The position numbers and the translations under genes were made by a program. Below the pieces are notes generated by a model. The model searched no databases. It had not been told where the DNA came from and saw nothing but the letters and a program-made list of their open reading frames with translations. Positions 31,347-64,000 of a DNA stretch of 64,000 bases are shown in pieces. The first letter of the stretch is position 1. Each line of letters opens with the position of its first letter. Source of the stretch: Amycolatopsis sp. EV170708-02-1 (GTDB taxonomy: Bacteria > Actinomycetota > Actinomycetes > Mycobacteriales > Pseudonocardiaceae); the NCBI RefSeq assembly GCF_022479115.1, contig NZ_CP092497.1:8432001-8496000 (forward strand). The letters are read 5' to 3'.

Positions 31347-31352
31347 CAGAAA

Positions 31353-35730: not shown

Positions 35731-35739
35731 GCCCGGGCA

Positions 35740-35765: not shown

Positions 35766-35808
35766 ACCCGCTAGCAGCCGCGCCGAGCTGCACACAACTG
35801 CACATAAC

Positions 35809-35854: not shown

Positions 35855-35856
35855 GC

Positions 35857-35911
35857 TGGTGTGGCGAGTGAGGGATTCGAACCCCCGAAGGCAGTGCCGT
35901 CTGATTTACAG
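35857..35911. repeat. attR: 55-bp core shared with attL
   Basis: Identical to 22776-22830. It covers the tRNA-Tyr 3' end through the anticodon loop; the shared block ends two bases past the anticodon. Exchange within this block restores an intact tRNA on integration. Confidence 0.92.
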
Positions 35912-40852: not shown

Positions 40853-40855
40853 CTG

Positions 40856-41926
40856 TCACGCCTCCGCGTACTGGTTGGCGGCGACCCCGAGACCGAGATG
40901 GTCGCGCAGGGTGGCGCCGGTGTAGGCCTGCCGGAACGCGCCCGCGGCCTGGAGCGCGGGCACGGTCTCGGCGGTGAAGAGCGCCAGGTCGTCGGGCAGG
41001 ACCGCGGGCCTGAGGTGGAAGCCGTCGAGGCCGTTGGATGCCGCGAGGCGGGGCAGCTCGGTGGCGAGGCCGGCGGGAGTTCCGGTGAAACTCGGGCCCG
41101 GCGGGAAGGGCGCGTAAGCCTCCAGCGCCCGGCGACGCTCGATGGCGGCCTGCTCGGTCTCGGCGAGCACGATCGACAGGCCGGCGAGGAGTTTCGCGTC
41201 CGGGAAGCGCTCGCGGGCGCCGCGGATCTCGTCGGCCAGGACGACGTCGGCGCCGTGCGCGTACGGCGAGTCGCCGTACACCGCGACGACGGGGTGGCCT
41301 TGCGGCGGACGCGGCGTGATCGAAGGTCCCTTGATGCTGAAAAAGCGACCTTCGAAGTCGACGTAGTGCAGCTTCTCGCGATCGATGAAGCGGCCGGTCG
41401 GCTCGTCGCGGATGATCGCGCCGTCCTCCCAGCTGTCCCAGAGGCGGGCGATGACGTCGACGACCTCGGCGTTCTCCGCTTCGGCGTCCACCTCGGACGG
41501 CAGGGTGCGCCTGCCGAAGTGCGCGACCTCGGCTTCGGTGCGCGAAGGCACCGCGAGGACACCTGCGCGGCCGCGGCTCGCGAAGTCGAGCGACGCGACG
41601 GCCGTCGAGATGTGGAACGGCTCGGTGTGGGTGGTGGTGACCGTGGGGATGAGGCCGATTCCGCTGGTCACGGGGGCTATGGCGGCGAAGGTCAGCAACG
41701 CGTCGAGGCGCCCTCGGACGACCTCCTCGCCTCCGGGCTGGAGCGCGAGGGTGTCGTCGAGGGTGACGAAGTCGAGCGAAGCCGCTTCGGCGAGCTTCGC
41801 GTGGGCGAGGTAGTGGGCGGCGGTGAACAACGCGGACGGGCGGACGTCGGAGACCCGCCAGGCGGCCGGATGCTGCCCGGCCCCGTCGAGCGCGACCCCG
41901 AGGTGCAACTGCTGTGCGGAACCCAT
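40856..41926 (-). CDS. LLM-class flavin-dependent oxidoreductase
   Basis: 356 residues. Features: LHLGVALDGAGQHPAAWRVS, AEAASLDFVTLDDTLALQPG, GIGLIPTVTTTHTEPFHIST and the phosphate-site SRGRAGVLAVPSRTEAE. The C-terminal GTPAGLATELPRLAASNGLD, GFHLRPAVLPDDL is typical of the monooxygenase subgroup paired with NtaA-like proteins. First gene of a two-gene unit; a cluster of palindromic repeats lies upstream. The substrate is unknown, though sulfur or halogenated organics are usual for the family. Confidence 0.87.
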   Translation of the reverse strand: MGSAQQLHLGVALDGAGQHPAAWRVSDVRPSALFTAAHYLAHAKLAEAASLDFVTLDDTLALQPGGEEVVRGRLDALLTFAAIAPVTSGIGLIPTVTTTHTEPFHISTAVASLDFASRGRAGVLAVPSRTEAEVAHFGRRTLPSEVDAEAENAEVVDVIARLWDSWEDGAIIRDEPTGRFIDREKLHYVDFEGRFFSIKGPSITPRPPQGHPVVAVYGDSPYAHGADVVLADEIRGARERFPDAKLLAGLSIVLAETEQAAIERRRALEAYAPFPPGPSFTGTPAGLATELPRLAASNGLDGFHLRPAVLPDDLALFTAETVPALQAAGAFRQAYTGATLRDHLGLGVAANQYAEA

Positions 41927-48238: not shown

Positions 48239-49474
48239 ATGACCACCTGCCGACTCTGCGGCTCGGCCCATCTCGCCAGTGTCGTCGACCTCGGGGCGAC
48301 GCCGCCGTGCGAACGTTTCCTGACCGCGGAACAGCTCGCGGAGCCGGAGCCGACGTACCCCCTCCACCTGCGGGTCTGCACCGAATGCTGGCTGGCCCAG
48401 ATCCCTCCGCTGATCACCCCGGAAGAGACTTTCACCGAATACGCGTATTTCTCGTCGTATTCCGCCTCCTGGGTCGAACACGCCAAGACGTTCGTCGACG
48501 GCGCCGTCGAGCGGCTGGGGCTCGACGAGTCCTCGTTCGTCGTCGAGGTCGCCAGCAACGACGGCTATCTCCTCAAACACGTTGTGGCACAGCAGATCCG
48601 TTGTCTCGGCGTGGAACCTTCGGTGAACGTGGGCCAAGCCGCGCGTGACGCCGGGGTGCCGACGAAGACCGCCTTCCTCGGCCCCGAAACCGGACGCGAC
48701 GTCCGCGAGGAGCACGGCCCCGCCGACCTCGTCGTGGCGAACAACGTCTACGCGCACATTCCGGACATCATCGGGTTCACGCACGGGCTCCGCGCCCTGG
48801 TCGCCGATGACGGCTGGGTCAGCATCGAGGTCCAGCACCTGCTGACGCTGATCCAGGAGAACCAGTACGACACGATCTATCACGAGCACTTCCAGTACTA
48901 CACGGTGGAATCCGCGCGCCGGGCGCTCGCGCAGGGCGGATTGTCCGTTGTGGACGTCGAGCTCCTGCCCACGCACGGCGGTTCGATCCGGTTGTGGGCG
49001 CGCCCGGACGCCGTCGCCGGTGAGCCGAGCGAGCGGATGACGCGGGTCCTCGACGCCGAAAAGGCGGCCGGGCTGCACGAAATGTCCGGCTACACCGAAT
49101 TCTCCGAGCGGGTCACCAAGGTCCGGCTCGAGCTGAACAAGTTCCTCACCGACGCCGCGCTCGAAGGCAAGACCGTCGTCGGTTACGGCGCCCCGGGCAA
49201 GGGCAACACGCTGCTGAACCACTGCGGCATCCGCCCGGACGTCTTGCGGTACACCGTCGACCGCAACCCGTACAAGCACGGCCGGTTCACCCCCGGCACC
49301 CGGATCCCGATCCTGCCGCCGGAGCGCATCGAAGCGGACCGGCCCGACTACGTGCTCGTCCTTCCGTGGAATCTCCGGAAGGAACTGACCGCCCAATTGT
49401 CCTTTGTGGACGAATGGGGCGGGAAGCTGGTCTTCCCCATCCCGCACCTGGAAATCGTCGAGGTGAAGTCGTGA
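48239..49474 (+). CDS. NDP-sugar C-methyltransferase, TylCIII/NovU-type
   Basis: 411 residues from ATG 48239 (AAGGAG upstream). The N-terminal zinc domain has Cys4, Cys7, Cys47 and Cys50 (CRLC, CTEC). The SAM domain includes FVVEVASNDGYLLKHVVAQQ, VVANNVYAHIPDIIGF and IYHEHFQYYT, and the C-terminal Rossmann-like domain VVGYGAPGKGNTLLNHCG. This three-part build is that of sugar 3-C-methyltransferases acting on dTDP-4-keto sugars. It is the first gene of the glycan operon; the next start overlaps its stop (GTGA). Confidence 0.92.
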   Translation: MTTCRLCGSAHLASVVDLGATPPCERFLTAEQLAEPEPTYPLHLRVCTECWLAQIPPLITPEETFTEYAYFSSYSASWVEHAKTFVDGAVERLGLDESSFVVEVASNDGYLLKHVVAQQIRCLGVEPSVNVGQAARDAGVPTKTAFLGPETGRDVREEHGPADLVVANNVYAHIPDIIGFTHGLRALVADDGWVSIEVQHLLTLIQENQYDTIYHEHFQYYTVESARRALAQGGLSVVDVELLPTHGGSIRLWARPDAVAGEPSERMTRVLDAEKAAGLHEMSGYTEFSERVTKVRLELNKFLTDAALEGKTVVGYGAPGKGNTLLNHCGIRPDVLRYTVDRNPYKHGRFTPGTRIPILPPERIEADRPDYVLVLPWNLRKELTAQLSFVDEWGGKLVFPIPHLEIVEVKS

Positions 49475-50261
49475 AGGTAGTCCTCTTCTGCGGCGGCTAC
49501 GGCATGCGGATGCGCAACGGTGACGCGTCCGACGTGCCGAAGCCGATGGCCATGGTCGGCCCCAGACCCCTGATCTGGCACGTGATGCGGTACTACGCGC
49601 ATTTCGGGCACACCGAGTTCATCCTCTGTCTCGGCTACGGCGCGCACCACATCAAGGAGTTCTTCCTCAACTACCAGGAGACCACCTCCAACGATTTCGT
49701 CCTGCGCCGCGGCAAGGCCGAGCTGCTGTCGACCGACATCGCGGACTGGTCGATCACCTTCGTGCAGACCGGGCTCGAATCGGCCATCGGCGAGCGGCTG
49801 CGCCGGGTGCGCCCGTATCTCGAGGGCGACGAGATGTTCCTCGCCAACTACGCCGACGTCCTCACCGACGCGCCCTTGCCGGACATGATCGAGCGGTTCA
49901 CCGAATCCGACGCCGGCGCGTCGATGATGGTCGTGCCGCCGCAGTCGTCGTTCCACTGCGTCGAGATGGGCGAGGACGGCCGCATCGGCGCGCTGACCCC
50001 GGTCAGCGAGATGCCGCTGTGGGAGAACGGCGGATACTTCGTGCTGCGCCAGGAGATCTTCGACCACATCCCGAGGGCGGCGACCTGGTGGCCGACGGCT
50101 GCGGCGAGCTCGCCAAGCGCGGCAAGCTGCTCGCGTACCCGTACCGCGGGTTCTGGAAGCCGACCGACACCGTCAAGGAACGCGTCCAGCTGGACGACGC
50201 GTACGCGCACGGAGACCGTCCGTGGGCCCGCTGGGAACGCGAAGCGGCGAGCTCGGCGTGA
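49471..50261 (+). CDS. Sugar-1-phosphate nucleotidylyltransferase (RfbF-like), frame broken once
   Basis: The composite protein is about 263 residues from GTG 49471. It starts VKVVLFCGGYGMRMRNGDAS, a nucleotidylyltransferase loop in which GMRMR replaces GTRLR, then VPKPMAMVGPRPLIWHVMRY, as in glucose-1-phosphate cytidylyltransferases. The frame breaks at CCC 50070-50072. One extra base restores FDHIPEGGDLVADGCGELAK and KLLAYPYRGFWKPTDTVKER to a stop at 50259-50261, whose GTGA overlaps the next gene exactly as the other operon junctions do. Without it the frame runs on to 50316 as arginine/serine-rich sequence. An indel artefact is favoured. It would activate a sugar phosphate for this pathway. 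Confidence 0.85.
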
Positions 50262-50911
50262 TCGAGCTCGGCACCGGCGGCGTCCAGCGGATCGTCGCGC
50301 TCGGCGCGCACTGTGACGACATCGCCATCGGCGCGGGCGGCACCCTGCTGACGATCTGCGCCGCCAACCCGGGTGTCCGGGTGGACGCGCTCGTGCTTTC
50401 CGGCGGCGGCACCGAGCGGGAGACCGAGGAACGCGCCGCGCTCGCGGCCTTCTGCCCCGGCGCCGACGTCGAGGTCACCGTGCTCAAACTGCCCGACGGC
50501 CGGTTCCCCGCGCATTGGGAAGAGGCCAAGAACGGGCTGGAGGAGCTGCGCCGCCGCACCGACCCGGACCTCGTGCTCTCCCCGCGCACGGCCGACGCGC
50601 ACCAGGACCACCGCGGCCTGGCGAAGCTGGTGCCGACCGTGTTCCGCACCCATCTCCAGCTGGAGTACGAGATCGCGAAATGGGACGGCGACCTCGGCAA
50701 ACCCACCGCGTACGTGCCGCTTTCGCCCGAGCGCGCCGAGGAGAAGGTCCGCCTGCTGCAGGAGCATTACGCCTCTCAGCGGCACCGGCCTTGGTACGAC
50801 CGGGAAGCCTTCCTCGGCCTCGCCCGCATTCGCGGTATCGAATGCGGGCAGCGCTATGCCGAGGCCTTCGACCTCAAGAAACTGACGCTCGACCTCACTC
50901 CGAAAGGCTGA
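50258..50911 (+). CDS. PIG-L family deacetylase
   Basis: 217 residues from GTG 50258; an earlier in-frame GTG at 50222 lies within the preceding gene. The PIG-L zinc motif is AHCDD (17-21, with Cys in place of the common Pro), then [27 protein letters not shown] and the second motif [17 protein letters not shown] (HxxH). Such enzymes remove N-acetyl groups from GlcNAc-containing conjugates, so an amino sugar is probably part of the product. Confidence 0.9.
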
Positions 50912-50916
50912 AAGCC

Positions 50917-51939
50917 ATGCGTGTGCTGCTGACCGGGCACAAGGGTTACCTGGGCACGGTGATGGCCCCGGTGCTGGCCGCCGAAGGCCACGAGGTGATC
51001 GGCCTCGACTCCGGTCTCTACGACACCTGCGTGCTCGGCCCGAAGCCCGAAGACCCCGAGGGTTTCGAGGTCGACCTCCGTGACGTCACGGCCGAGCACG
51101 TGGCCGGCGTGGACGCGGTGATCCATCTCGGGGCGCTGTCCAACGACCCGCTCGGTTCGCTGGCGCCGGAGCTGACCTACGACATCAACCACCACGCTTC
51201 GGTCAAGCTCGCGAAGCTGGCGAAGGACGCCGGGGTCAAGCGGTACCTCTACGCCTCCACGTGCTCGGTGTACGGCGCTTCGGGCGGCGACGGCCTGGTC
51301 GACGAGGACGCGCCGCTGCGCCCGGTGACGCCGTACGCCGAGTCGAAGGTGCGGGTGGAGGACGACGTCCAGGAGCTCGCCGACGCCGACTTCAGCCCGG
51401 TGTACATGCGGAACGCGACCGCGTTCGGGTTCTCGCCCCGGCTGCGCGGCGACATCGTGCTCAACAACCTGACCGCGCACGCGCACCTCTCCGGCGAGGT
51501 GCTGGTGCTCTCCGACGGCACGCCGTGGCGGCCGCTGGTGCACGCCAAGGACATCGCGCGGGCCTTCGCCGCGGCGCTGGTGGCACCGAAGGAAGCCGTG
51601 CACGGCAAGGCGTTCAACATCGGCACCGAACGCAACAACGTGACCGTCGCCGAGATCGCCGAAGAGGTCGTCGAGGCCGTCCCCGGCTCGACGCTGCGGA
51701 TCACCGGCGAGGCGGGCGCGGACCCGCGTTCGTACCGGGTCGACTTCTCCCGGTTCCGCGCGGCGATCCCCGGCTTCGACTGCGACTGGTCGGTCAAGGA
51801 CGGCGCGCTCGAACTGATCGAGGCCTACAAGACGCACGGCCTCACCGAACACGGCTTCCAGCGCCTGTTCACGCGGCTCGCGCGGCTGCAGGACCGGACC
51901 GCGGCCGGCGAACTCGACGACACCCTCCGGCGTCGCTGA
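50917..51939 (+). CDS. NAD-dependent sugar epimerase/dehydratase (extended SDR)
   Basis: 340 residues from ATG 50917. The NAD-binding motif is TGHKGYLG (6-13), with [20 protein letters not shown], a Ser/Thr-rich [10 protein letters not shown], and the catalytic YAESK. Substrate domain: [20 protein letters not shown]. It resembles the epimerases found beside NovU-type methyltransferases and RfbF-like proteins; reduction or epimerisation of the 4-keto sugar is the likely step. Stop and next start share a base (TGATG). Confidence 0.92.
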
Positions 51940-53213
51940 TGTCGAACAGGGATCTGGACACGGGCGCCGACCTGCGAAAGCTGGTCGAGCGCCTGTATCC
52001 GCTGTGCCGCAGCATCACCGGCGACGGCGTCCGCCGCACGCTGGAGATCGTCGGCGAGCACGTCCCGCTGGAGATCCACGAGGTCCCCACCGGCACCCGG
52101 GTACTGGACTGGACGGTGCCGCAGGAATGGAACATCCGCGACGCGTACATCAAGGACGCCACCGGCCGCCGCGTGGTCGACTTCCAGGAGTCGAACCTGC
52201 ATGTCGTCGGCTACAGCGTCCCGGTGTCGCGGAAGATGCCGCTCAGCGAGCTGCGCGAGCACCTGCACACCCTGCCCGATCAGCCGTCCTGGGTGCCGTA
52301 CCGGACCAGCTACTACTCGCCGACCTGGGGTTTCTGCCTGGCGCAGGAAACACTCGACGCGATGCCGGACGGCGAGTACGAAGTGCACATCGACTCCACG
52401 CTCGCCGACGGGAGCCTCACCTACGCCGAGCACGTCGTGCCGGGCGAGGTCACCGACGAGGTGATCATCTCCTGCCACACCTGCCATCCGTCGCTGGCGA
52501 ACGACAACGTCGCCGGGATCGCGATCGCCGCCGCCTTCGCACAGACACTGGAGAAGCCGCACTACACGTACCGGTTCCTCTTCATGCCGGGCACGATCGG
52601 CGCCATCACCTGGCTCGCGCGCAACAACGACCGCGTCGGCCGGATCAAGGCCGGGCTCGTGCTGGCGTGCGCGGGCGACCCGGGATCGTTGACCTACAAG
52701 CGAAGCCGCCGGGGCGACGCCGAAATCGACCGCGTGCTCGCGTACGTCCTGGCCGACCGCGCGCACAAGATCGTGGACTTCTCGCCGTACGGCTACGACG
52801 AGCGCCAGTTCTGCTCGCCCGGCTTCAACCTCGGCGTCGGCTCGCTGACGAGGACGCCGTACGCGGGCTATCCCGAGTACCACACTTCGGCCGACAACCT
52901 CGATTTCGTGTCCACGGAGGCCATGGAGGAAACCCTTCAGACCTTGAAGGACACCTTCGCCGTCCTCGACCGCAACCGCAGCTACGTCAACCTCAGCCCC
53001 TACGGCGAGCCGCAGCTCGGCAAGCGCGGGCTGTACGACTCGCTCGGCGGCCGAAGCGACGCCAAACAAGCCCAGATGGCCATGCTCTGGGTGCTCAACC
53101 TCTCGGACGGCGAGCACAGCCTGCTCGACGTCGCCGAGCGGTCCGGGCTGCCGTTCGATTCCGTCGTCGCCGCCGCTCGGGCGCTGCACGACGCCGGATT
53201 GCTCAAGGACTGA
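51939..53213 (+). CDS. DUF4910 aminopeptidase-like protein of the glycan operon
   Basis: 424 residues from ATG 51939. Domain order is N-terminal DUF2172-like (DWTVPQEWNIRDAYIKDATG, VVDFQESNLHVVGYSVPVS), M28/DUF4910 peptidase-like and a C-terminal winged-helix-like tail (DGEHSLLDVAERSGLPFDSV). Zinc-ligand-like residues are kept: SCHTCHPSLANDNVAG and EYHTSADNLD. Family members occur inside polysaccharide gene clusters. The real substrate is unknown; hydrolysis of an amide on a sugar (amino-acyl or acetyl group) would fit the neighbours. Confidence 0.88.
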   Translation: MSNRDLDTGADLRKLVERLYPLCRSITGDGVRRTLEIVGEHVPLEIHEVPTGTRVLDWTVPQEWNIRDAYIKDATGRRVVDFQESNLHVVGYSVPVSRKMPLSELREHLHTLPDQPSWVPYRTSYYSPTWGFCLAQETLDAMPDGEYEVHIDSTLADGSLTYAEHVVPGEVTDEVIISCHTCHPSLANDNVAGIAIAAAFAQTLEKPHYTYRFLFMPGTIGAITWLARNNDRVGRIKAGLVLACAGDPGSLTYKRSRRGDAEIDRVLAYVLADRAHKIVDFSPYGYDERQFCSPGFNLGVGSLTRTPYAGYPEYHTSADNLDFVSTEAMEETLQTLKDTFAVLDRNRSYVNLSPYGEPQLGKRGLYDSLGGRSDAKQAQMAMLWVLNLSDGEHSLLDVAERSGLPFDSVVAAARALHDAGLLKD

Positions 53214-53215
53214 AG

Positions 53216-54490
53216 ATGCGATCACTTCTGCGTTCCCAAGCCGTCCGGGCCATGGCCGGGCGGCTCAGCTGGGGCCTCGGCGACCAGGCCGTTTCCAGTA
53301 TCACCAACTTCGTGGTCGGGCTGTTCGTGGCGCGTTCGCTCGGCACGTTCGCCTTCGGCATGTTCAGCCTCGCCTGGGTCAGCTACGGCGTGGTGCTCAA
53401 CCTTTCGCGCGGGCTGACGACGGATCCGCTGATGGTGCGGTTCTCCGGGGTGCCCACCGAGACCTGGCGGACGGCGACCGCCAAGGCGACCGGGACGGCG
53501 CTCTCCGCGGGTGTCGCCGCCGGTGCCGTCAGTGTGGGCGCGGGTCTCGTGGTGGGTGGCCCCATCGGCGGCGCGTTCGTCGCGCTCGGCGTGGTCATCC
53601 CGACGCTGCTGCTGCAGGACGCGTGGCGGTTCACCTTCTTCGCCGCGGGGCACGGGAAGAAGGCGTTCGTCAACGACGTCGTCTGGGGCATCGCGCTGAT
53701 CCCGGCGCTCTTCATCGCGCACCAGTGGTTCGACACGGTCGTCGCGTTCATCCTGGCGTGGGGCCTGTCCGGGGCGGTCGCCGCCGGATACGGCTGCCTG
53801 CAGGCGGGGGTCCGGCCGGATCCTCGCGGCACGCTCGACTGGCTCAAGCACCACCGCGACCTCGGCACCCGCTACCTGATCGAAAACGTCAGCAACAGCG
53901 GCTCGACGCAGCTGCGGATGTACGGGCTCGGCGCGATCGCCGGGCTCGCGAGCGTCGGCGCGGTCCGCGGCGCCGAGCTGCTCCTCGGACCGTTCTTCGC
54001 TCTTCTGATGGGACTTTCCCTGGTCACGGTGGCGGAAGGCGCGCGGGTGCTCCAACGGGCCCCGCATCGCCTCCGCCATTTCTGCGCCGTGCTCGGCGCG
54101 GGCCAGGCGGCCGCGGCCCTGCTCTGGGGTCTCGCCTTGCTTCTGGTACCCCACGACGCCGGCCGGTTCGTCCTCGGCGACGTGTGGGATCCCGCCTCCG
54201 AACTGATCCTCCCGGTGACCATCGGTATCGCCGCGGCGGGATTCAACACGGGGGCGGCCGCCGGATTGCGTGCGCTCGGCGCTGCGAAAAGGAGCCTTCG
54301 CGCCCAGCTGATCAACTCGGCCGGCTACGTCGGTTTCGGGCTCATAGGCGCCTTCTTGGCCGGGGCGTCCGGATCCGCTTGGGGGGTCGCGTTGGCGATC
54401 ACCAGCGGGTCGGCGGTGTGGTGGCTTCAGCTCCATGCCGCTCTCAAAGCGCATCTGACTTCGGAGAAGGAAGAAATGAGGACGTCATGA
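53216..54490 (+). CDS. Lipid-linked glycan flippase, polysaccharide-export (MATE/Wzx-like) family
   Basis: 424 residues from ATG 53216, 2 bases after the previous stop. There are 10-12 hydrophobic helices, starting with LSWGLGDQAVSSITNFVVGL, FVARSLGTFAFGMFSLAW, the Wzx/RfbX-type opening. It is expected to move a lipid-linked saccharide across the membrane. The ending KEEMRTS overlaps the next gene (ATGA). Confidence 0.88.
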   Translation: MRSLLRSQAVRAMAGRLSWGLGDQAVSSITNFVVGLFVARSLGTFAFGMFSLAWVSYGVVLNLSRGLTTDPLMVRFSGVPTETWRTATAKATGTALSAGVAAGAVSVGAGLVVGGPIGGAFVALGVVIPTLLLQDAWRFTFFAAGHGKKAFVNDVVWGIALIPALFIAHQWFDTVVAFILAWGLSGAVAAGYGCLQAGVRPDPRGTLDWLKHHRDLGTRYLIENVSNSGSTQLRMYGLGAIAGLASVGAVRGAELLLGPFFALLMGLSLVTVAEGARVLQRAPHRLRHFCAVLGAGQAAAALLWGLALLLVPHDAGRFVLGDVWDPASELILPVTIGIAAAGFNTGAAAGLRALGAAKRSLRAQLINSAGYVGFGLIGAFLAGASGSAWGVALAITSGSAVWWLQLHAALKAHLTSEKEEMRTS

Positions 54491-55437
54491 GCACCGCTCC
54501 TCGGCTGAGCATCGGGCTCCCGGTCTACAACGGCGAGGACTACCTCGCCGAATCGCTGGACGCACTCCTCGGCCAAAGCTACGAGAACTTCGAGCTGATC
54601 ATCTCGGACAACGCGTCCTTGGACCGCACCGAAGAGATCAGCCGCGAGTACGCGAAGCAGGATTCGCGCGTCCGCTATGTCCGCCAGCCGGTGAACATCG
54701 GCTGCGCGCCCAACCACAACTACTGTGTCGACGTCGCCCGCGGCGAACTGTTCAAATGGGCGTCCGACGACGACCTTTACGCGCGTGACCTGCTGGAACG
54801 CTGTATCGAGGCACTCGACGAGCATCCCGAGTTCGTCCTCTCGCATTCGTGGACGGCGATGATCGACGAGAAGGCCGTCGTCACGCAGGCACTGGAGTAC
54901 CCGCTCAACACGGTCTCGCCGCACGCCGCGGAACGCTTCCGCAGCACGCTGTTCGCCCCCGGCGGGGACGACGACGGCGCGGTCGTCCGCACCGAGGTGC
55001 TGCGCCGCGTCGCGCCGCTGGACAGCTACCACCACGCGGACCGCACGATCATCTCGGAACTGGCCCTGCACGGCCCGTTCCACCAGGTGCCCGACTGGCT
55101 GTACTTCCGGCGCGACCACCCCGGCCGCTCCGAACACGAGCACCCGACCGTGCGCAGGCGGGCCGCCAACCTCGACCCGAAACGGGCCGACAAGCTGCGC
55201 CACCCGATGGTCCGGCTGCTCGGCGAATACGTACTCGGCTACGTCAAGGCGATCCGCAACGCGCCGATCTCCGGCGCGGAGAAGCGCGAATGCTTCCGCT
55301 ACCTGCGGCAATGGATGCTGAACCGGGCGGGGAACCCGGCCATGGGACGGATGCCCGTCCAGGCCGAGGCCGAAGTGGGCCCCCGTGAAGTGTCCGTGGC
55401 CTCGGTCGTCGCCGGCCAGGAGGGACGAGTCCCTTGA
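54487..55437 (+). CDS. Family 2 glycosyltransferase
   Basis: 316 residues. GT2 fold: RLSIGLPVYNGEDYLAESLD, ALLGQSYENFELIISDNASL, the metal motif KWASDDDLYARDLLERCIEA. The C-terminal part (about 240-316) is basic, with a QWMLNRAGNPAMG segment, and is not membrane-spanning. It transfers one sugar of the glycan unit, probably at the inner face of the membrane. Four-base overlaps at both ends. Confidence 0.92.
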   Translation: MSTAPRLSIGLPVYNGEDYLAESLDALLGQSYENFELIISDNASLDRTEEISREYAKQDSRVRYVRQPVNIGCAPNHNYCVDVARGELFKWASDDDLYARDLLERCIEALDEHPEFVLSHSWTAMIDEKAVVTQALEYPLNTVSPHAAERFRSTLFAPGGDDDGAVVRTEVLRRVAPLDSYHHADRTIISELALHGPFHQVPDWLYFRRDHPGRSEHEHPTVRRRAANLDPKRADKLRHPMVRLLGEYVLGYVKAIRNAPISGAEKRECFRYLRQWMLNRAGNPAMGRMPVQAEAEVGPREVSVASVVAGQEGRVP

Positions 55438-56621
55438 CCTCGCCCGTGAGAATCGGGCTGTTCGGGCTCCTCGGATCAGGGAACCTCGGCAACGACGGGT
55501 CCTTCGAGGCGGTTCTCGGGTATTTGCGCGCGGAGCATCCGGGCGCCGCGCTCAGCGTGATGTGCGGCGGCCCGGAAGTCGTCGCGTCGCGCCACGGACT
55601 CGAAACGACCGCGTTGAACTGGTACGAGGGCGAGTACCGAACGGCATCGGGACCGCTGTCCATCGCCATGAAGGGCTTCGGGAAACTCGTCGACATCTTC
55701 CGCACGGCCGCGTGGGTGCGGCGCCAAGACGTGGTGATCGTGCCGGGAATGGGTGTCCTCGAATCCACTCTTCCCTTGCGTCCCTGGGGTTTCCCGTACG
55801 CGCTACTGCTGCTTTCGGTATCCGGCCGTCTGGTTGGCACCAAGGTGGCGCTGGTGAGCGTCGGCGCCAGCGTGAGCACGCACCGGGTCACCCGGTCCGT
55901 GATCGGGTGGGCCGCGCGGCTCGCGGCGTTCCGGTCCTACCGGGACGAGCCGTCACGTGAAGCGATGCGCACAATGGGCGTCGACGTCACGAACGACCGC
56001 GTGTACCCCGATCTCGCCTTCGCCCTCCGCGCGCCTTCGGAACCGGTGCTGCCCCGGTCCGTCGGGGTCGGGGTGATGGCGTACCACGGCGGGAACGACG
56101 ACCGGCACCGAGCCGCCGAGATCTACGAGTCCTATGTGGACAAGATGACCCGGTTCGTGGCTCGTCTGGTCGCCGACGGCCGCCCGGTGCGGCTGTTCAT
56201 CGGCGACCGGGCGGACGCGCAGGTCGTCGACGAGATCATGCGGGAACTGGAATCCCCGCTGATCGCCGCCGCCGACACGGCCACTTTGGACGAGGTGATG
56301 CGGGCGATGTCGGCGGTCGAGACCGTCGTCGCCACCCGGTACCACAACGTCCTGTGCGCGCTGAAGCTGGCGAAACCGACGTTGTCCATCGGGTACGCCG
56401 GCAAGAACGAAGTGCTCATGACCACGCTGGGACTCGGCGAGTTCTGCCAGTCCGCCAAGGAGATCGACTTCGACGCGCTGGTGCGCCAGTTCGCCGAACT
56501 CGAGTCCAGGGCGGGTGAGCTGACCGAGATCGTCGCGAAACGAGGCGCGGAGCAGACGCGGTTGCTGGACGAACAGTTCGCCGCGCTGTCCGCCGCCTTC
56601 CTGCCGATGGGAGTCCGATGA
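55434..56621 (+). CDS. Polysaccharide pyruvyltransferase-family protein
   Basis: 395 residues from TTG 55434 (AGGAGGGA upstream; TTGA overlaps the previous stop). The PS_pyruv_trans pattern is clear: RIGLFGLLGSGNLGNDGSFE, then VVIVPGMGVLESTLPLRPWG, LVSVGASVSTHRVTRSVIGW, and the C-terminal VVATRYHNVLCALKLAKPTL. The family adds pyruvate ketals to sugars or acts in related glycan modification. This would give the glycan a negative charge. Confidence 0.9.
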   Translation: MTSPVRIGLFGLLGSGNLGNDGSFEAVLGYLRAEHPGAALSVMCGGPEVVASRHGLETTALNWYEGEYRTASGPLSIAMKGFGKLVDIFRTAAWVRRQDVVIVPGMGVLESTLPLRPWGFPYALLLLSVSGRLVGTKVALVSVGASVSTHRVTRSVIGWAARLAAFRSYRDEPSREAMRTMGVDVTNDRVYPDLAFALRAPSEPVLPRSVGVGVMAYHGGNDDRHRAAEIYESYVDKMTRFVARLVADGRPVRLFIGDRADAQVVDEIMRELESPLIAAADTATLDEVMRAMSAVETVVATRYHNVLCALKLAKPTLSIGYAGKNEVLMTTLGLGEFCQSAKEIDFDALVRQFAELESRAGELTEIVAKRGAEQTRLLDEQFAALSAAFLPMGVR

Positions 56622-57166
56622 AGGTGATCCCGGTGCCCGCCATCGCGGGCGCGTACCTGTTCGAGCCGACCCCGCACGCCGACGAACGCGGCTTCTTCAG
56701 CCGCACCTTCGACGCCGACGTCGTCCGGTCGGCCGGGATCGACCCGAACGGGTTCCTCCAGGACAGTGTTTCCCGCTCCCGCAAGGGAGTGCTGCGCGGG
56801 ATGCACCTTCGTTCGGGGCTCGGCGAGGCGAAGCTGGTCCGGTGCTCGTGGGGCGCCGTCTTCGACGTCGTCGTCGACCTGAGGCCGGATTCGCCGACGT
56901 ACCTCGCCAAGGAGACGTTCGAACTGTCCGGGGAGACGCAGGTTTCGCTGTACATCCCGGCCGGGTGCGCGCACGGGTTCCAGGCGCTCACCGAGTACGC
57001 CGACGTCTCCTACCGGATCGACCGCGCGCACGACCCGGCGGAGGACGTCGCGATCGCCTACGACGACCCGGAACTGGCGATCCTGTGGCCACTTCCGGTG
57101 GCGCTCATGTCGGAGCGGGATCGATCCGCGCTCCCGCTTTCCGCCGTACTACAGAACACGAGGTGA
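56618..57166 (+). CDS. rfbC: dTDP-4-dehydrorhamnose 3,5-epimerase-family protein
   Basis: 182 residues. Cupin fold with catalytic His63 in RGMHLRSG, the entry motif PHADERGFFSRTFDADVV, VDLRPDSPTYLAKETFELSG, VSLYIPAGCAHGFQALTEYA and the Tyr in VSYRID. It epimerises dTDP-4-keto-6-deoxyglucose at C3 and/or C5. The neighbouring C-methyltransferase would use such a keto sugar. ATGA overlap with the previous gene. Confidence 0.93.
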   Translation: MKVIPVPAIAGAYLFEPTPHADERGFFSRTFDADVVRSAGIDPNGFLQDSVSRSRKGVLRGMHLRSGLGEAKLVRCSWGAVFDVVVDLRPDSPTYLAKETFELSGETQVSLYIPAGCAHGFQALTEYADVSYRIDRAHDPAEDVAIAYDDPELAILWPLPVALMSERDRSALPLSAVLQNTR

Positions 57167-57170
57167 GAGC

Positions 57171-58487
57171 ATGACCCGTCAGCTTCCCAAGTCCATGCGG
57201 GCCAACGAGCGCCTCCACGCCATGATCCCCGGCGGGGCGCACACCTACGCCAAGGGCGACGACCAGTATCCGGAGAATCTGGCACCGGTCATCTCGCACG
57301 GGCTCGGCGCGCACGTCTGGGACGTCGACGGGAACGAATACATCGAGTACGGCTCGGGGCTGCGCGCGGTCAGCCTCGGGCACGTGCACCCGAGGGTGAC
57401 CGAAGCCGCCCACCGCGAGATCGACCGGGGCGCCAACTTCGCCCGTCCGTCCATTGTGGAGGAACGGGCGGCGACGAAGTTCCTCGAAACCGTGCCGACC
57501 GCCGAGATGGTCAAGTTCGCCAAGAACGGCTCGGACGCCACCACGGCCGCGGTCAAACTCGCCAGGGCGGCCACCGGCAGGCCGCTGGTGGCGATCTGCC
57601 GCGACCACGCGTTCTTCTCCATCGACGACTGGTTCATCGGCACCACCGCGATGTCTTCGGGCATCCCGGACGCGATCACGGATCTCACCGTGTCGTTCCC
57701 GTACGGCGACCTCCCGGCGGTGGAGCGGCTGCTGCGGGACAACGCTGGCCGGATCGCCTGCCTGATCCTGGAGGCGTCGACCCAGCTCGAACCGCCCGCC
57801 GGCTACCTCGTCGGCCTGCGGGAACTCGCCGACCGGTACGGCTGTGTGCTGATCTTCGACGAGATGATCACCGGTTTCCGCTGGTCGGAGGCGGGCGCGC
57901 AGGGGCTCTACGGGGTCACGCCGGATCTCTCGACGTTCGGCAAGGCGCTCGGCAACGGGTTCGCCGTCTCGGCGCTGGCGGGCAAACGGGAACTGATGGA
58001 ACTCGGCGGGCTGCGCACCGGCGAGGACCGCGTCTTCCTGCTGTCCACCACGCACGGCGCCGAGACGCATTCGCTGGCCGCCGCGATCGCGGTCATGGAG
58101 ACCTACACCGAAGAAGGCATCGCCGCGCGGCTGCACGCGCTCGGCGACCGGCTCGCCGCCGGGGTCCGCGAAGTCGCGGCCTCGGCCGGGGTCGGGGAAC
58201 ACGTCGTCGTGCGCGGCCGGGCGAGCAACCTCGTCTTCGCCACGCTCGACGCCGGCAAGAAACCGTCGCAGGACTACCGGACGTTGTTCCTGCGGCAACT
58301 GGTCACGGGCGGGGTCCTCGGGCCGTCGTTCGTGGTCAGCAGCGCGTTGTCCGAAGAAGACATCGACCGGACGGTCGAAGTGGTCTCGCAGGCCTGCCTC
58401 GTGTACCGCAAAGCGCTCGACGCGGATGATCCGGCGCCGTGGCTGGGTGGCCGTCCGGTGAAGCCGGTATTTCGGAGAAGGGTATGA
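57171..58487 (+). CDS. PLP-dependent aminotransferase, glutamate-1-semialdehyde aminomutase-like
   Basis: 438 residues. Class III fold: ERLHAMIPGGAHTYAKGDDQ, WDVDGNEYIEYGSGLRAVSL, KFAKNGSDATTAAVKLARAA, cofactor Asp in LIFDEMITGFRWS, Schiff-base Lys258 in STFGKALGNGF. It is longer than HemL, and this context differs from heme genes. It probably transaminates a keto sugar or makes a small amino-keto building block. It is not the housekeeping hemL, by inference from its place in the operon. Confidence 0.9.
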   Translation: MTRQLPKSMRANERLHAMIPGGAHTYAKGDDQYPENLAPVISHGLGAHVWDVDGNEYIEYGSGLRAVSLGHVHPRVTEAAHREIDRGANFARPSIVEERAATKFLETVPTAEMVKFAKNGSDATTAAVKLARAATGRPLVAICRDHAFFSIDDWFIGTTAMSSGIPDAITDLTVSFPYGDLPAVERLLRDNAGRIACLILEASTQLEPPAGYLVGLRELADRYGCVLIFDEMITGFRWSEAGAQGLYGVTPDLSTFGKALGNGFAVSALAGKRELMELGGLRTGEDRVFLLSTTHGAETHSLAAAIAVMETYTEEGIAARLHALGDRLAAGVREVAASAGVGEHVVVRGRASNLVFATLDAGKKPSQDYRTLFLRQLVTGGVLGPSFVVSSALSEEDIDRTVEVVSQACLVYRKALDADDPAPWLGGRPVKPVFRRRV

Positions 58488-59983
58488 GCCCAGGGATCGT
58501 ATATCGCTCGACCGGCACGCGCGTGTTCTGCGCCGCGTTGTCCGTATTACTGCTCCAGGTCGCCGTTGAGAACACAGCGGTGGCGTCCGAAGAGCCGGCT
58601 CGAGGGGTGTGCGGCACGACCGTCGGCGTCCCTTCCGCCCCGGAAGGCGCCCAGGTCGTCGATCCAGGCACCGATCTGACCGACAGGACCCGGTTCAGCC
58701 CGCCGGGGACCACGTTCTGGCTGTCACCGGGCGAGCACACGCTGAGTTCCGACCAGTTCGGCCAGGTGATGCCGAAGGACGGCAACGTCTACCTCGGCGC
58801 GCCCGGCGCCGTGCTCAACGGACGCGGGATCAACCGCGCGGCCTTCACCACGCCGGCCAAGGACGTGGTGATCCGCGGGCTGACCATCCGCGGTTTCGTC
58901 GCCGAACGCGACCAGGGCGTGGTCAACCACGATTCGGGCGAACGCTGGACCATCGAAGGCAACGTCATCGAGGACAACGACGGCGCCGCGATGATGACCG
59001 GCTCCGGCCAGCGGGTGATCGGGAACTGCCTGCGGAACAACGGGCAGTACGGCATCAACGCCTATCGCTTCGGCGGCGGGCTGACCGGCCTGGTGATCGA
59101 GGGCAACGAGATCACCGGGAACAACACCGGCGACTGGGAGACGAAGGTCCCGGGCTGCGGTTGCAGCGGCGGGGCGAAGTTCTGGGCCGTGAACGGCGCC
59201 GACGTCACCGGGAACTGGGTCCACCACAACCACGGTGTCGGGCTCTGGGCCGACACGAACAACAACGACTTCCTCATCCAGGACAACCTGATCGAGGACA
59301 ACGCGTCCGAGGGCCTGTTCTACGAGATCTCCTACAACCTGGAGCTGATCGGGAACACCTTCAACCGGAACGCGCTGGTGCAGGGCCGGAAACGGGCCGC
59401 CAAGGGCGACAACTTCCCGGTCGCGGCGGTGTACCTCAGCGAATCGGGCGGCGAGCCGAGGCTGCCCGCCCGGACCAGCCGGATCGACATCCGGGGCAAC
59501 ATGTTCTCCGACAACTGGTCGGGGATCACGTTGTGGGAGAACGCCGACCGGTTCTGCAACAGCCCGGCCAACACCTCCACGCTCTCCTGTACGGCGCTGG
59601 TCTCCCCGACTTCCGCCTGCTCCGATCCGGGTATCGCGACCGAGCCGCTGTACGGCGACTGCCGGTGGAAGACACAGCGCGTTTCGGTGCACGAGAACAC
59701 CTTCGAATTCGACTCGGCGATGGAAGGCTGTCTCGGCCTGTGCGGGCGGATGGCGGTGCTCTCGAACTACGGGACCTTCCCGGCCTGGTCGCCGTACCGA
59801 GGCTCCGTGATCTCGGAGGCGATCACCTTCCGGCAGGAGAACCGGTGGTACGACAACCAGTACTACGGGCCGTGGACGTTCGTCGCCCACGACACCTCAC
59901 GGCGGCTGACCGCGGCGCAATGGCAGGCGGCGCCCTATCTGCAGGACACCTGCAGCGGCTTCGGAGAGACGGTGACCTGCTGA
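58484..59983 (+). CDS. Secreted right-handed beta-helix protein, copy 1
   Basis: 499 residues from ATG 58484 (ribosome site GGAGAAGGG; ATGA overlaps the aminotransferase stop). After a signal peptide (about 1-38) comes a parallel beta-helix with NosD/pectate-lyase-like rungs: DVVIRGLTIRGF, WTIEGNVIEDNDGAAMM, NGQYGINAYRFGGG, HHNHGVGLWADTNNNDFLIQ, LIEDNASEGLFYEIS. A CGCSGGAKFWAVNGA loop and several Cys suggest disulfides. It is probably a lyase, epimerase or binding protein for the glycan made by the operon. Confidence 0.88.
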   Translation: MSPGIVYRSTGTRVFCAALSVLLLQVAVENTAVASEEPARGVCGTTVGVPSAPEGAQVVDPGTDLTDRTRFSPPGTTFWLSPGEHTLSSDQFGQVMPKDGNVYLGAPGAVLNGRGINRAAFTTPAKDVVIRGLTIRGFVAERDQGVVNHDSGERWTIEGNVIEDNDGAAMMTGSGQRVIGNCLRNNGQYGINAYRFGGGLTGLVIEGNEITGNNTGDWETKVPGCGCSGGAKFWAVNGADVTGNWVHHNHGVGLWADTNNNDFLIQDNLIEDNASEGLFYEISYNLELIGNTFNRNALVQGRKRAAKGDNFPVAAVYLSESGGEPRLPARTSRIDIRGNMFSDNWSGITLWENADRFCNSPANTSTLSCTALVSPTSACSDPGIATEPLYGDCRWKTQRVSVHENTFEFDSAMEGCLGLCGRMAVLSNYGTFPAWSPYRGSVISEAITFRQENRWYDNQYYGPWTFVAHDTSRRLTAAQWQAAPYLQDTCSGFGETVTC

Positions 59984-59997
59984 AGGTTCACCTGTAA

Positions 59998-61476
59998 GTG
60001 TCCATCTGGGACGGTCCATACTGGCTTACCGTTTTCAGTATGCCGACGTTCCTCGTAATGGTGCTGCTGCTCGTGACAGGAGTCGTCCCGGCCTCGGCGG
60101 CTCCTGTCGCGGCCTGCGCTGCGGGACCGGTGAGCCCGGGGAAACCGGACGGCGCCGTGGTCGTCTCCCCGGGAACGGACCTTTCCGCGAAGACCCGCGA
60201 ACTCCCCGCCGGCACGACGTTCTGGCTGACCGACGGCAAGCACACGCTGGGCCCGGACGAGTTCGGGCAGATCATCCCCAAGGACGGCAACGCCTACCTC
60301 GGCGCCCCCGGTGCCGTACTGGACGGTGGCGGCGTCAACCGCTACGCGTTCACCCAGCAGGCGCGCGACGTCGTCATCCGCGGCCTCACGATCCGCGGTT
60401 TCGCGGCGCCGCGCGATCAAGGCGTGGTCAATCACGACTCGGGGGAACACTGGACCATCGAAGGCAACACGATCGAGGACAACCGCGGCGCCGCGATGAT
60501 GGCGGGACCGCGTCAGGAGATCCTCCGGAACTGCCTGCGGAACAACGGTCAGTACGGCATCAACGCGTACCGGGCGGGCGACGGGATCACCGGGCTGCTC
60601 GTCGAGGGCAACGAGATCACCGGCAACAACACCGACGACTGGGAAACGAAGGAACCCGGCTGCGGCTGCAGCGGCGGCGCGAAATTCTGGGCGGTGAACG
60701 GCGCCGACATCCGCGGCAACTGGGTGCATCACAACCACGGCGCCGGACTGTGGGCGGACACGAACAACAACGACTTCCTCATCGAGGACAACCTGATCGA
60801 GGACAACGCGGCGGAGGCGTTGTTCTACGAGATCTCCTACAACGTCGTGGTCCGCGGGAACACCTTCCGACGGAACACCCTCGTGCAGGGCCGGGCCTTC
60901 GCTGACCGCGGGGACGATTTCCCGGTCGGGACGGTGTACATCTCGGAATCCGGCGGCGAGCCGAGGGTGCCGGCCCGGACTTCGCTGGTGGAGATCACCG
61001 ACAACGTCTTCGAGGACAACTGGTCCGGGATCACCCTGTGGGAGAACGCGGACCGCTTCTGCAACAGCCCGGCGAACACGTCGTCCGGCTCTTGCACGCT
61101 CCTCGTCCCTTCGGTCTCTTCGTGTTCGGCGCCCGGGATCGCGTCGCGTCCGCTTTACGACGACTGCCGGTGGAAGACGCAGCGGGTTTCGATCCACGGC
61201 AACCAGTTCTCCCACGGGTCTTCCTGCTCGGGATACTGCGGGCGGATGGCGCTTTTGGCGAACTTCGGGACTTATCCGGAGTGGTCGCCTTATCGGGGGT
61301 CTTCCGTTTCGGACGCTGTCACTTTCCGGCAGGAGAACCGGTGGTACGACAACGCTTATTCGGGTGAGTGGCGGTTCGTCGTTCATGACACTTCGCGGAC
61401 TGTGGGGGTTTCGGGGTGGCAGGGGGCTCCTTACTTGCAGGATGCTTGTAGTTCTTTTGGGGATGGCGGGTGTTGA
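59998..61476 (+). CDS. Secreted right-handed beta-helix protein, copy 2
   Basis: 492 residues from GTG 59998; ATG 60040 would give a better-shaped signal peptide and may be the true start. The whole body repeats the preceding protein, including CGCSGGAKFWAVNGA, HHNHG-GLWADTNNNDFLI, NADRFCNSPANTS and the ending CRWKTQRVSIHGNQF. It starts 15 bases after copy 1, which indicates tandem duplication. The copies diverge in the N-terminal 60 residues and in the Ser/Cys-rich loop near residue 370. Confidence 0.87.
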   Translation: MSIWDGPYWLTVFSMPTFLVMVLLLVTGVVPASAAPVAACAAGPVSPGKPDGAVVVSPGTDLSAKTRELPAGTTFWLTDGKHTLGPDEFGQIIPKDGNAYLGAPGAVLDGGGVNRYAFTQQARDVVIRGLTIRGFAAPRDQGVVNHDSGEHWTIEGNTIEDNRGAAMMAGPRQEILRNCLRNNGQYGINAYRAGDGITGLLVEGNEITGNNTDDWETKEPGCGCSGGAKFWAVNGADIRGNWVHHNHGAGLWADTNNNDFLIEDNLIEDNAAEALFYEISYNVVVRGNTFRRNTLVQGRAFADRGDDFPVGTVYISESGGEPRVPARTSLVEITDNVFEDNWSGITLWENADRFCNSPANTSSGSCTLLVPSVSSCSAPGIASRPLYDDCRWKTQRVSIHGNQFSHGSSCSGYCGRMALLANFGTYPEWSPYRGSSVSDAVTFRQENRWYDNAYSGEWRFVVHDTSRTVGVSGWQGAPYLQDACSSFGDGGC

Positions 61477-61617: not shown

Positions 61618-62562
61618 GTGCTACGAGGAACCTGGTCGACCGACCCCATGCTCACCCAAGGCCCGATGGTGGTCCGCTCGGCCGCGCTCGAGGCCGCCGG
61701 CGTGCCGGGCCGGACCATTTCACGCCGATGTGCTTCCGGCGGCCCTTGGCAACGCCTGCTGCCGCGAATCGTTCTGCTTCACAACGGAAACCCCACGGAC
61801 GAGCAGCGACTCCAGGCGTCGCTGCTCCATGGCCGCGAAGGCGCGGTCCTGACCGGTCTCTGGGCGCTCCGCCGTCATGGCTTGGAGAGGCCTCCGCCGC
61901 CACAGGACGTACATATCCTGGTGCCCGCCGCTCGCAGGATCGCCACGACGGGGTTCGTGCACGTCGAACGGACCCGGCACCTGCCGCGCCCCCACCTCCG
62001 CGGCGACCTCCCCGTCGCCCCCGTCCCCCGAGCAGTCATCGACGCCGCCCGAAAACTCACCGCCGAAGACGAGATCCAGGCGATGATGGCCGAGTCCGTC
62101 CAACGCCGCTTCTGCACCACCGAAATGCTCACCCACGAACTGGACCAAGCAGGTCGAACCGGAACCGCACTACCGAGAAGGGCCCTGACCCCGCTCCTCG
62201 GCGGAGCGAGATCCGTCGCCGAAGCCGACGCTTGGCGGCTCTGGCGAAGATCCGGCCTCCCGCCGGGCCGCTGGAACGTCCCGATCTTCGACGCGAACGA
62301 CAACTACATCGCCACCCCGGACTTCTGGTGCGACGAGTGCGCCTTCGCTTGGGAGATCGATTCCTGCCGTCACCACGCCGGCCTCGACGGTCATCGCGCC
62401 ACCGTCGCACGCAATGCGCGTTATGTCGCCGCGGGGATCGTCGTGCTCCAGACGTTGCCGTCTCGCCTGCGTACGGAGCCGGCGCAGGTCGAGCGTGAGC
62501 TGAAGGCCGCGTTCCGGACGGCGCGGGCCCGGCCGCGGCCGGATGTCAGGCGGGCCGCGTGA
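61618..62562 (+). CDS. AbiEi-like/DUF559-like protein (type IV antitoxin N-domain, endonuclease-like C-domain)
   Basis: 314 residues from GTG 61618, or 304 from ATG 61648. The N-terminal domain has the AbiEi-like winged helix: LEAAGVPGRTISRRCASG, WQRLLPRIVLLHNG, AVLTGLWALRRHGL. The C-terminal domain ends with a nuclease-fold-like FWCDECAFAWEIDSCRHHAG, YVAAGIVVLQTLPSRLRTEP. This two-domain form is multi-copy in actinobacteria and its function is not established. No partner toxin gene lies next to it. Confidence 0.72.
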   Translation: MLRGTWSTDPMLTQGPMVVRSAALEAAGVPGRTISRRCASGGPWQRLLPRIVLLHNGNPTDEQRLQASLLHGREGAVLTGLWALRRHGLERPPPPQDVHILVPAARRIATTGFVHVERTRHLPRPHLRGDLPVAPVPRAVIDAARKLTAEDEIQAMMAESVQRRFCTTEMLTHELDQAGRTGTALPRRALTPLLGGARSVAEADAWRLWRRSGLPPGRWNVPIFDANDNYIATPDFWCDECAFAWEIDSCRHHAGLDGHRATVARNARYVAAGIVVLQTLPSRLRTEPAQVERELKAAFRTARARPRPDVRRAA

Positions 62563-63181
62563 GCCGGTCCACCGCCCACCCCACCACCGGAACCACCGCG
62601 ACAGCGACCCCGAACCCTCCGAAGGTGTCCGTCGGATAGTGCGCCCCCAGCGCCACCTCAGCCCAACCCATCGCGAGCCCCGCGAACGCGACCAGCCCCA
62701 CCAGCACCAGAGCCCCACCGACGGGTCCGAGCCCCCGCACGTCGATCACCAGCAACCCCACGACGGCCGCGACGGTCACCGCGAAGGCCGTGTGCCCACT
62801 CGGATACGAAAGGAACTCACCATGGATCAGCCTGCCGACCAGGGGTTTCAGTCCGGTGGTCAGCGCCACCGTCACGCCGCTCGCCGCCACCGTGAGGATC
62901 GCGATCCGCGGCCGCCGGTGCCGCAGGCACAGCCAGCCGAACAGGGCGATCACCACGACCGCGCCCACCGGTTCGCCCGCGAAGTCGATGGCGGTCGCCA
63001 GGTACCAGAGCGGGCCTTCGACGCGGTCGACGACGGGGAGCACGAGGGCGTCCAGTCCGGCGGTGTGCGAGCTACCGGCGTAGCGCACGCCGAGCACGAG
63101 GGCGACGACGAAGCCGAAGGTGCCCAGGGTCCAGAGCGGGATTCGCGCCCGCGGCGGGATCGCGGGCGGTCCGGTGATCAC
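62546..63181 (-). CDS. PAP2-family membrane phosphatase
   Basis: 211 residues from GTG 63181 (GTGA overlaps the stop of the upstream glycosyltransferase). Six helices with the acid-phosphatase signature in three parts: KPLVGR, SYPSGHTAF and GAHYPTDTFGG. It is expected to dephosphorylate a lipid or polyprenyl pyrophosphate at the outer face. Its 3' end overlaps the convergent gene by 17 bases. Coupling to a glycosyltransferase suggests lipid-carrier recycling. Confidence 0.88.
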   Translation of the reverse strand: MITGPPAIPPRARIPLWTLGTFGFVVALVLGVRYAGSSHTAGLDALVLPVVDRVEGPLWYLATAIDFAGEPVGAVVVIALFGWLCLRHRRPRIAILTVAASGVTVALTTGLKPLVGRLIHGEFLSYPSGHTAFAVTVAAVVGLLVIDVRGLGPVGGALVLVGLVAFAGLAMGWAEVALGAHYPTDTFGGFGVAVAVVPVVGWAVDRLTRPA

Positions 63182-64000
63182 GCGTCGATCGCGGCCTGGT
63201 AGCCGCCGATGAGCCGTTCGAGGCCGACCTTCGGCGTGAACTCCTGCTCGTACACCAGCCTGGCCGCCCAGCCCATCTCCTGGTTCCGTTCGGCGTCGCC
63301 GACGATCTCCCGCAAGCGAGCAGCGAGGGACTCGGCGTCGCCGGGGTCGTGCAGCAGGCCGGTGACGCCGTCCTCGACGAGCTCGCGGAAGGCGCCGTGG
63401 GCGGCGGCGACGGTGGGGACGCCGGCGGCCATCGCCTCGACGACGACCAGCCCGAACGCCTCCAGCCATTCGGACGGGGCGATGACGGCGTTCGAGCGGA
63501 CGATCAGGTCTTGACACTCCACTTTGGACTGAAGGCCGACGTAGCGGACGTCGTCCCGGCCGTGGGCCCAGCGCGCGACCCCGTCCTGCATCGGGCCGGT
63601 GCCGGCGATCACCAGCGGCGGCAGCGGACCGCCCGCCGCGACGAGCAGGTCCCAGGCCTTCATCAGCAGGCCGATGCCCTTTTCCTCGGTGATCCGGCCG
63701 AGGAACAGCAGGTGCTCCCCCGCGCCCTTGCGCGTCTTGCCCGGGTCGGTGACGTAGTTGTACTTCACCGCGAGCCGGTCGGCGGGCATCCCGGCGGCGA
63801 TCAGGATCTCGCGTTGCGCCCGCGAGATGCAGAAGAACTTCGACACCCCGGACCACCAGCGCTTGCGGTTCAGCACCATGCTCGCCGCCATCGGCACGGT
63901 GGCGAGCCCCGAACCGCGGTAGCACCCGTGCCGCACCGCCGGGATCGGTTTGCGCCCCACACAGTCGGTGCAGATGTAGCCCTCGCGATAGAGCGTGCCG
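63178..64000 (-). CDS. Family 4 glycosyltransferase, N-terminus beyond the window
   Basis: About 274 residues of the C-terminal part; the frame continues past 64000 without a start. At the edge it reads YICTDCVGRKPIPAVRHGCY, a CxxC-type loop seen in some GT4 enzymes. Then GVSKFFCISRAQREILIAAG, the donor domain with LLFLGRITEEKGIGLLMKAW, and the EX7E motif in EAFGLVVVEAMAAGVPTVAA. It uses a nucleotide sugar (often GDP-mannose); the acceptor is not evident. An internal ATG at 63960 is not the true start. Confidence 0.9.
   Translation of the reverse strand, partial: GTLYREGYICTDCVGRKPIPAVRHGCYRGSGLATVPMAASMVLNRKRWWSGVSKFFCISRAQREILIAAGMPADRLAVKYNYVTDPGKTRKGAGEHLLFLGRITEEKGIGLLMKAWDLLVAAGGPLPPLVIAGTGPMQDGVARWAHGRDDVRYVGLQSKVECQDLIVRSNAVIAPSEWLEAFGLVVVEAMAAGVPTVAAAHGAFRELVEDGVTGLLHDPGDAESLAARLREIVGDAERNQEMGWAARLVYEQEFTPKVGLERLIGGYQAAIDA

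Follow-up and report, generated by a model that had tools for sequence, protein, structure and literature searches.

An Amycolatopsis operon, very probably one half of a Wzx/Wzy-type exopolysaccharide cluster with homology to the Streptomyces ebosin (ste) genes

We analysed a stretch of 64,000 nucleotides (the window; positions 8432001-8496000 of the 9.66 Mb, single-contig genome of Amycolatopsis sp. EV170708-02-1) in which twelve plus-strand genes, spanning window positions 48239-61476, form an operon for a predicted exported glycan. Comparison with other genomes and with the DNA beyond the window edge indicates that this operon very probably supplies the plus-strand genes, about half, of a complete exopolysaccharide cluster of Wzx/Wzy type. 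The cluster is a homologue of the ste cluster, which is known for the production of ebosin by Streptomyces sp. 139. The cluster type is therefore known already, and what is particular to Amycolatopsis and its kin is the convergent layout and the extra, predicted secreted beta-helix proteins. A cluster that recurs in Streptomycetaceae and Pseudonocardiaceae is now tied to a studied product. The initial annotation of the window had described genes running in one direction as an operon for an exported glycan of unusual kind, and had listed among their products sugar-modifying enzymes, a flippase, a GT2 glycosyltransferase and two secreted beta-helix proteins. As a prediction this stands; the operon is real and conserved, but the accompanying statements that it has no Wzy and resembles no described system are wrong. 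A literature search that included Amycolatopsis found no such cluster there, nor any expression or product data for it.

A minus-strand run of genes faces the operon, from 62546 to position 78784 on the window scale. In order of transcription it encodes a nucleotide-sugar dehydrogenase, a GT4 glycosyltransferase, Wzz1, Wzz2, AsnB, a bi-domain oxidoreductase, a heparinase II/III-like protein, beta-helix 3, Wzy, a second GT4 and a PAP2 phosphatase. Inside the window are the PAP2 gene (62546-63181, minus strand; Pfam PAP2, in the same place in relatives) and part of the last GT4 gene (63178-64000, minus strand, continuing to 64359 past the window; Pfam Glycos_transf_1, ste15 position, 68% identical to its counterpart in Streptomyces sp. 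KN37, below), so the reported lack of a Wzy was an artefact of the window edge, and the count of one GT2 holds for the operon but not for the facing run with its two GT4 genes. The predicted polymerase is recognized by family match (Pfam Wzy_C, 38.7 bits against a cut-off of 31.7, at L078:6525-7745); Wzz2 scores 43.0 bits against a cut-off of 25.5, and Wzz1, at 17.2 bits, lies below it. The facing run may be more than one transcript, since 112 and 165 bases separate the genes at two of its junctions. An initiating sugar transferase is present but unlinked: the sole match in this genome to PF02397 (the only initiator family searched; 231 bits) lies at G000:C1:4.717 Mb, 3.8 Mb from the cluster, and is 61% identical to the transferase that heads the KN37 cluster. 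Together with the flippase predicted from the operon, a Wzy, Wzz proteins and a polyprenyl-phosphate initiating transferase make up the components of a Wzx/Wzy-dependent system.

The layout of these genes was surveyed in 75 named loci, which were brought in by beta-helix 2 (the closest named matches of this protein are in Amycolatopsis species, with 96% identity in A. keratiniphila). The cluster is contiguous in 31 of them (Streptomyces, Kitasatospora and one unplaced actinobacterium) and convergent in 25 (Amycolatopsis and one Prauserella), GSA-type aminotransferase and then beta-helix genes facing glycosyltransferase and Wzy genes; eleven have the beta-helix gene only, and eight have another layout or are cut by a contig end. 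These layouts show that the genes are associated beyond chance. A Wzy-less system of undescribed kind, exporting an oligosaccharide or glycolipid, had been proposed from the plus-strand genes, which do include no Wzy and a single glycosyltransferase; the Wzy, two Wzz and two GT4 genes of the facing run, and the convergent and contiguous loci just counted, leave that proposal with hardly any probability, and we reject it as refuted by the DNA outside the window. The lone beta-helix genes, whose products are predicted to be secreted (loci L017, L023, L026, L028-L031, L035-L037 and L051), include six from species in which a cluster-linked copy occurs as well (A. vastitatis, A. bullii, A. eburnea, A. 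rifamycinica, and two not named to species level), and no cluster genes were seen among the reading frames listed in the flanks of six of the eleven loci (no family search was made). For one operon gene, that of a DUF4910 protein, homologues were counted at an E value of 1e-30 or better. Among 120 genomes from the family to which the window belongs, 26 have one, spread over 11 of 46 genera (at least 72% identity); among 121 from the genus of G018, which we read as Streptomyces, 41 have one (76-81% identity).

When the region was compared with plasmids by megablast, one from Streptomyces sp. KN37 proved to carry the same genes as a single run, in which a sugar transferase, a Wzz and an O-antigen-ligase-type Wzy are also encoded. 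The ste cluster itself was reportedly first described by Wang et al. in 2003. The functional classes of ste1-ste27 are given in the legend to Fig. 1a of PMC11078827 (2024), and primers for ste5, ste8, ste17 and ste2 have been published in PMC8902715 (2022). When one ste8 primer was searched against 392 genomes of a single genus, read as Streptomyces, it matched exactly in one (G322) and with one mismatch in six. Eleven of the twelve primers tried on G322 match exactly and the other has one mismatch; those for ste5, ste8 and ste17 are all without mismatch, and their sites lie within the genes for the sugar transferase, the first Wzz and RfbF, respectively. The ste2 flanks in G322 are 828 and 731 bases long without primer tails, and the published lengths are 829 and 749 (PMC8902715). 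Counting genes by homology, there are two between ste5 and ste8 (ste6-7) and eight between ste8 and ste17 (ste9-16), and the GT2 gene is fifth after ste17 (ste22), all of which fits the ste numbering and the functional classes in the PMC11078827 legend. We infer that G322 is strain 139 or a member of its species; ste5, ste8 and ste17 are anchored by primers, and the other single-gene names used here go by position and functional class.

The comparison covered ste5-ste22, and all 18 have homologues in the Amycolatopsis genome, their order kept in two blocks and not in one: the window holds the counterparts of ste16-ste22 plus pyruvyl transferase, RfbC and GSA genes, and the facing run those of ste6-ste15. 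The two clusters thus share homologues of all of ste5-ste22 and the pyruvyl transferase, RfbC, GSA and PAP2 genes, and the Amycolatopsis cluster differs by its two convergent runs, its unlinked initiating transferase and its two extra genes for secreted beta-helix proteins. Such a match, to a characterised cluster whose product is known, is what the initial annotation had named as grounds for refuting its own interpretation. The published primers fit other loci unevenly. Those for ste8 fail on the Wzz1 genes there (6-8 mismatches for the forward primer). Those for ste17 would amplify 145 bases, at 0-4 and 0-3 mismatches, from 49 of the 58 loci that match RfbF; the remaining nine comprise L074 and eight loci from L001-L011, the retrieved DNA of which lacks most of the RfbF gene. 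The ste17 primers are not decisive alone, since they also match a Tsukamurella gene (3 and 1 mismatches) and, at four mismatches or fewer, 8 of 300 random 1-kb control stretches (which were not cleared of RfbF genes).

The twelve operon genes belong to the families first named for them, with two reservations: Pfam alone does not recognize the flippase, and the RfbF-like gene is split between two frames. The reading frames of the other eleven are open. The tight packing of the unit from the C-methyltransferase to beta-helix 1 was confirmed, its ten junctions being -4, -4, +5, -1, +2, -4, -4, -4, +4 and -4 bases. In order, all on the plus strand, these genes encode a sugar C-methyltransferase (MT14) of NovU/TylC3 type at the ste16 position (48239-49474; Pfam Methyltransf_13/23/14), a glucose-1-phosphate cytidylyltransferase-like protein (RfbF-like, ste17 position; 49471-50261), a PIG-L family deacetylase (ste18 position; 50258-50911; Pfam PIG-L, 8.4e-15 on the open reading frame from 50222, with AHCDD and HQDH motifs), an NAD-dependent sugar epimerase/dehydrogenase (SDR, ste19 position; 50917-51939; Pfam Epimerase, best PDB match 6vo6 with E 6.3e-34, STCSVYG and YAESK motifs), a DUF4910/DUF2172/HTH_47 protein (Pfam; ste20 position; 51939-53213), the flippase (ste21 position; 53216-54490), a GT2 glycosyltransferase (ste22 position; 54487-55437; Pfam Glycos_transf_2), a polysaccharide pyruvyl transferase (55434-56621; Pfam PS_pyruv_trans, 5.2e-21), an RmlC/RfbC-type 3,5-epimerase (56618-57166; Pfam dTDP_sugar_isom, 1e-53), a GSA-type class III aminotransferase (57171-58487; NF004856, 689 bits against a cut-off of 486, with the pyridoxal-phosphate lysine motif FGKALGNG) and beta-helix 1 (58484-59983; Pfam Beta_helix). 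Beta-helix 2 (60040-61476; Pfam Beta_helix) follows after 56 bases if it begins at the likely ATG at 60040, or after 14 if at the possible GTG at 59998; the former is probably the start, because in six relatives, L003-L008, the 59998-type start runs into an in-frame stop after 3-7 codons. Other genes lie between the operon and an rmlA gene at 38665, which is not counted as part of it.

The flippase was not found by the usual markers. PF13440 has no match in this genome and matches weakly in 4 of 33 relatives, a profile comparison does not link the protein to an annotated Tsukamurella flippase, and its sequence has no PDB match and no useful NCBIfam match. Its predicted fold is nearest to WzxE and a MATE transporter, which upholds the earlier flippase call; this structure model settled the assignment of the 53216-54490 product as, by predicted fold, a Wzx flippase of the MOP superfamily.

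The predicted product is a C-methylated, amino- and pyruvyl-bearing sugar, to judge from enzymes whose motifs are intact. The C-methyltransferase matches the mycarose 3-C-methyltransferase structure 4rv9 over its full length (E 6.1e-84) and has the three-part domain order of the NovU/TylC3 type and the YHEH motif, also present in 4rv9, which we take to be the active-site motif of these enzymes. It is in these respects like the TylC3/TcaB9 sugar 3-C-methyltransferases, but here the enzyme sits in a polysaccharide cluster, and the single dTDP-glucose 4,6-dehydratase over cut-off in the genome is unlinked; six matches to the CDP-glucose 4,6-dehydratase model TIGR02622 were found there, none over cut-off. 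The DUF4910 protein scores 560 bits against 3k9t (24-row profile) and has the three domains and the His/Asp/His metal site of the CA_C2195 family, the counterparts of the 3k9t metal ligands listed in PMC4000134 (H184, D190 and H316) being the same in all 24 rows. Das et al. (2014, PMC4000134) described surface-carbohydrate neighbourhoods in which DUF4910 genes lie near nucleotidyltransferase, epimerase, methyltransferase and glycosyltransferase genes, several of them also with exporter and pyruvyl transferase genes; theirs is a general association, and here an ordered Wzx/Wzy cluster has been traced. On a Tsukamurella tyrosinosolvens plasmid (L077:14995-21733) the MT14/RfbF/PIG-L/SDR module is accompanied by RfbC and GSA genes and the stretch retrieved has no DUF4910 match, so the sugar module can occur without DUF4910. 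The gene content predicts C-methyl, pyruvyl and perhaps uronamide chemistry beyond the published compositions that were compared.

The beta-helix proteins, annotated so far as mere repeat proteins, gain a testable role from this setting. By structure comparison the predicted right-handed beta-helix of beta-helix 2 is nearest to uronan C5-epimerases and lyases (AlgE6/AlgE4 and RbmB), with 14-19% identity over the aligned parts to the AlgE/AlgG mannuronan C5-epimerases and the RbmB polysaccharide lyase. Other beta-helix groups match too, namely NosD, tailspikes, an adhesin and GH87 glucanases, the Foldseek TM-scores are low, and catalytic residues could not be mapped; there is thus a serious chance, somewhat short of even, that these proteins serve in structure or binding, or are glycosidases, instead of acting on uronates as epimerases or lyases. 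A quick tree was built of 106 proteins (eight short pieces, including beta-helix 2 of L003-L008, were left out), and its midpoint separates 65 rows, with Ste13 and beta-helix 3, from 41 Pseudonocardiaceae rows, among them beta-helix 1 and 2; the SH-aLRT value of this split is 88, which does not earn a star for support. A crude lipobox pattern matches 61 of the 65 and 14 of the 41; the smaller side is read as secreted, because its 14 matches mostly fall inside or after the hydrophobic stretch. Beta-helix 3 is accordingly predicted to be lipoprotein-like, of Ste13 type, and beta-helix 1 and 2 to be secreted.

Gene content and order, the ste homology and the predicted folds of the flippase and beta-helix 2 are the observations from which we infer the reactions, substrates and product of the following pathway. 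The unlinked Ste5-like transferase would load the first sugar onto undecaprenyl phosphate, and the two GT4 enzymes and the GT2 would lengthen the repeat unit. UDP-uronate would come from the nucleotide-sugar dehydrogenase, and a C-branched, probably aminated sugar from the MT14/RfbF/PIG-L/SDR/DUF4910/RfbC/GSA module; the pyruvyl transferase may add a ketal. Wzx would then flip the unit, Wzy with the two Wzz proteins would polymerise it, and PAP2 would recycle the lipid pyrophosphate. Outside the cell, the lipoprotein-like beta-helix 3 and the secreted beta-helix 1 and 2 would act on the polymer, most likely as epimerases or lyases at uronate residues. The polymer could instead be a wall-attached glycopolymer or capsule and not a released exopolysaccharide, since beta-helix 3, if a lipoprotein, would be membrane-near and neither attachment nor release is known for this polymer; ebosin is reported in published work to come from culture supernatants, and we consider attachment improbable. 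A tentative and, taken whole, rather doubtful elaboration of the ebosin-type reading is that the polymer carries a C-methyl-branched, pyruvylated sugar missed by composition analyses and made without 4,6-dehydration (the SDR oxidising C4 as Cj1427 does, followed by C3-methylation and RfbC epimerisation), and that the secreted beta-helix pair are Pseudonocardiaceae enzymes that remodel or cut the polymer outside the cell, the lipoprotein form acting at the export site.

Several observations weigh against the ebosin-type reading. Among six window proteins scored against G322 over (nearly) their whole length, the GT2 (61% identity, with the gene in ste22 position) and the pyruvyl transferase (55%) are the least conserved, the other four being 76-79% identical, so that Amycolatopsis may make something other than ebosin. 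Should ste22b be the pyruvyl transferase, the authors of PMC11078827 place it in the class of polymerization and export and not of pyruvyl transfer. The published ebosin compositions compared, including that in PMC11078827, name neither a C-methyl sugar nor pyruvate; either these groups escaped the composition analyses or our predictions are wrong. A crude hydropathy count gives the heparinase-like protein neither a signal peptide nor a membrane segment. Finally, the TIGR02623 matches of the RfbF-like gene, at 49474-50097 and 50106-50234, are in different frames of the assembly and below the curated cut-off, and with this frame broken the sugar may not be made by this strain.

That last observation raises the possibility that the cluster is decaying here, the broken cytidylyltransferase silencing it or altering its product. 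No further TIGR02623 match, and so no second copy, was found in this genome, and 9 of the 11 loci L001-L011 read across the break site in one frame (L001 starts right at the site, and L006 has no such match). The other eleven plus-strand genes are open, and G322, which carries the ebosin primer sites, itself has shifts of frame within its cluster (L106 and L107), in the three genes for Wzz1, RfbF and DUF4910, which makes an assembly error plausible for the break in Amycolatopsis as well. The DUF4910 matches of G373 and G385 are split but in one frame, so that of these three genomes only G322 shifts frame there; 2 of the 58 RfbF matches lack the C-terminal motif in their frame. Decay is thus quite possible, if on balance unlikely, and we favour a complete ebosin-type cluster.

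Elsewhere in the window, two adjacent luciferase-like monooxygenase genes lie on the minus strand at 39536-41926, between rmlA and an M48 peptidase gene. An integrative element occupies 22776-35911; it is bounded by exact direct repeats of 55 bases (22776-22830 and 35857-35911), the right one inside a tRNA-Tyr gene, and contains an integrase-like gene (34363-35730) and an FtsK-like gene (29103-31346), both recognized by Pfam matches below cut-off.

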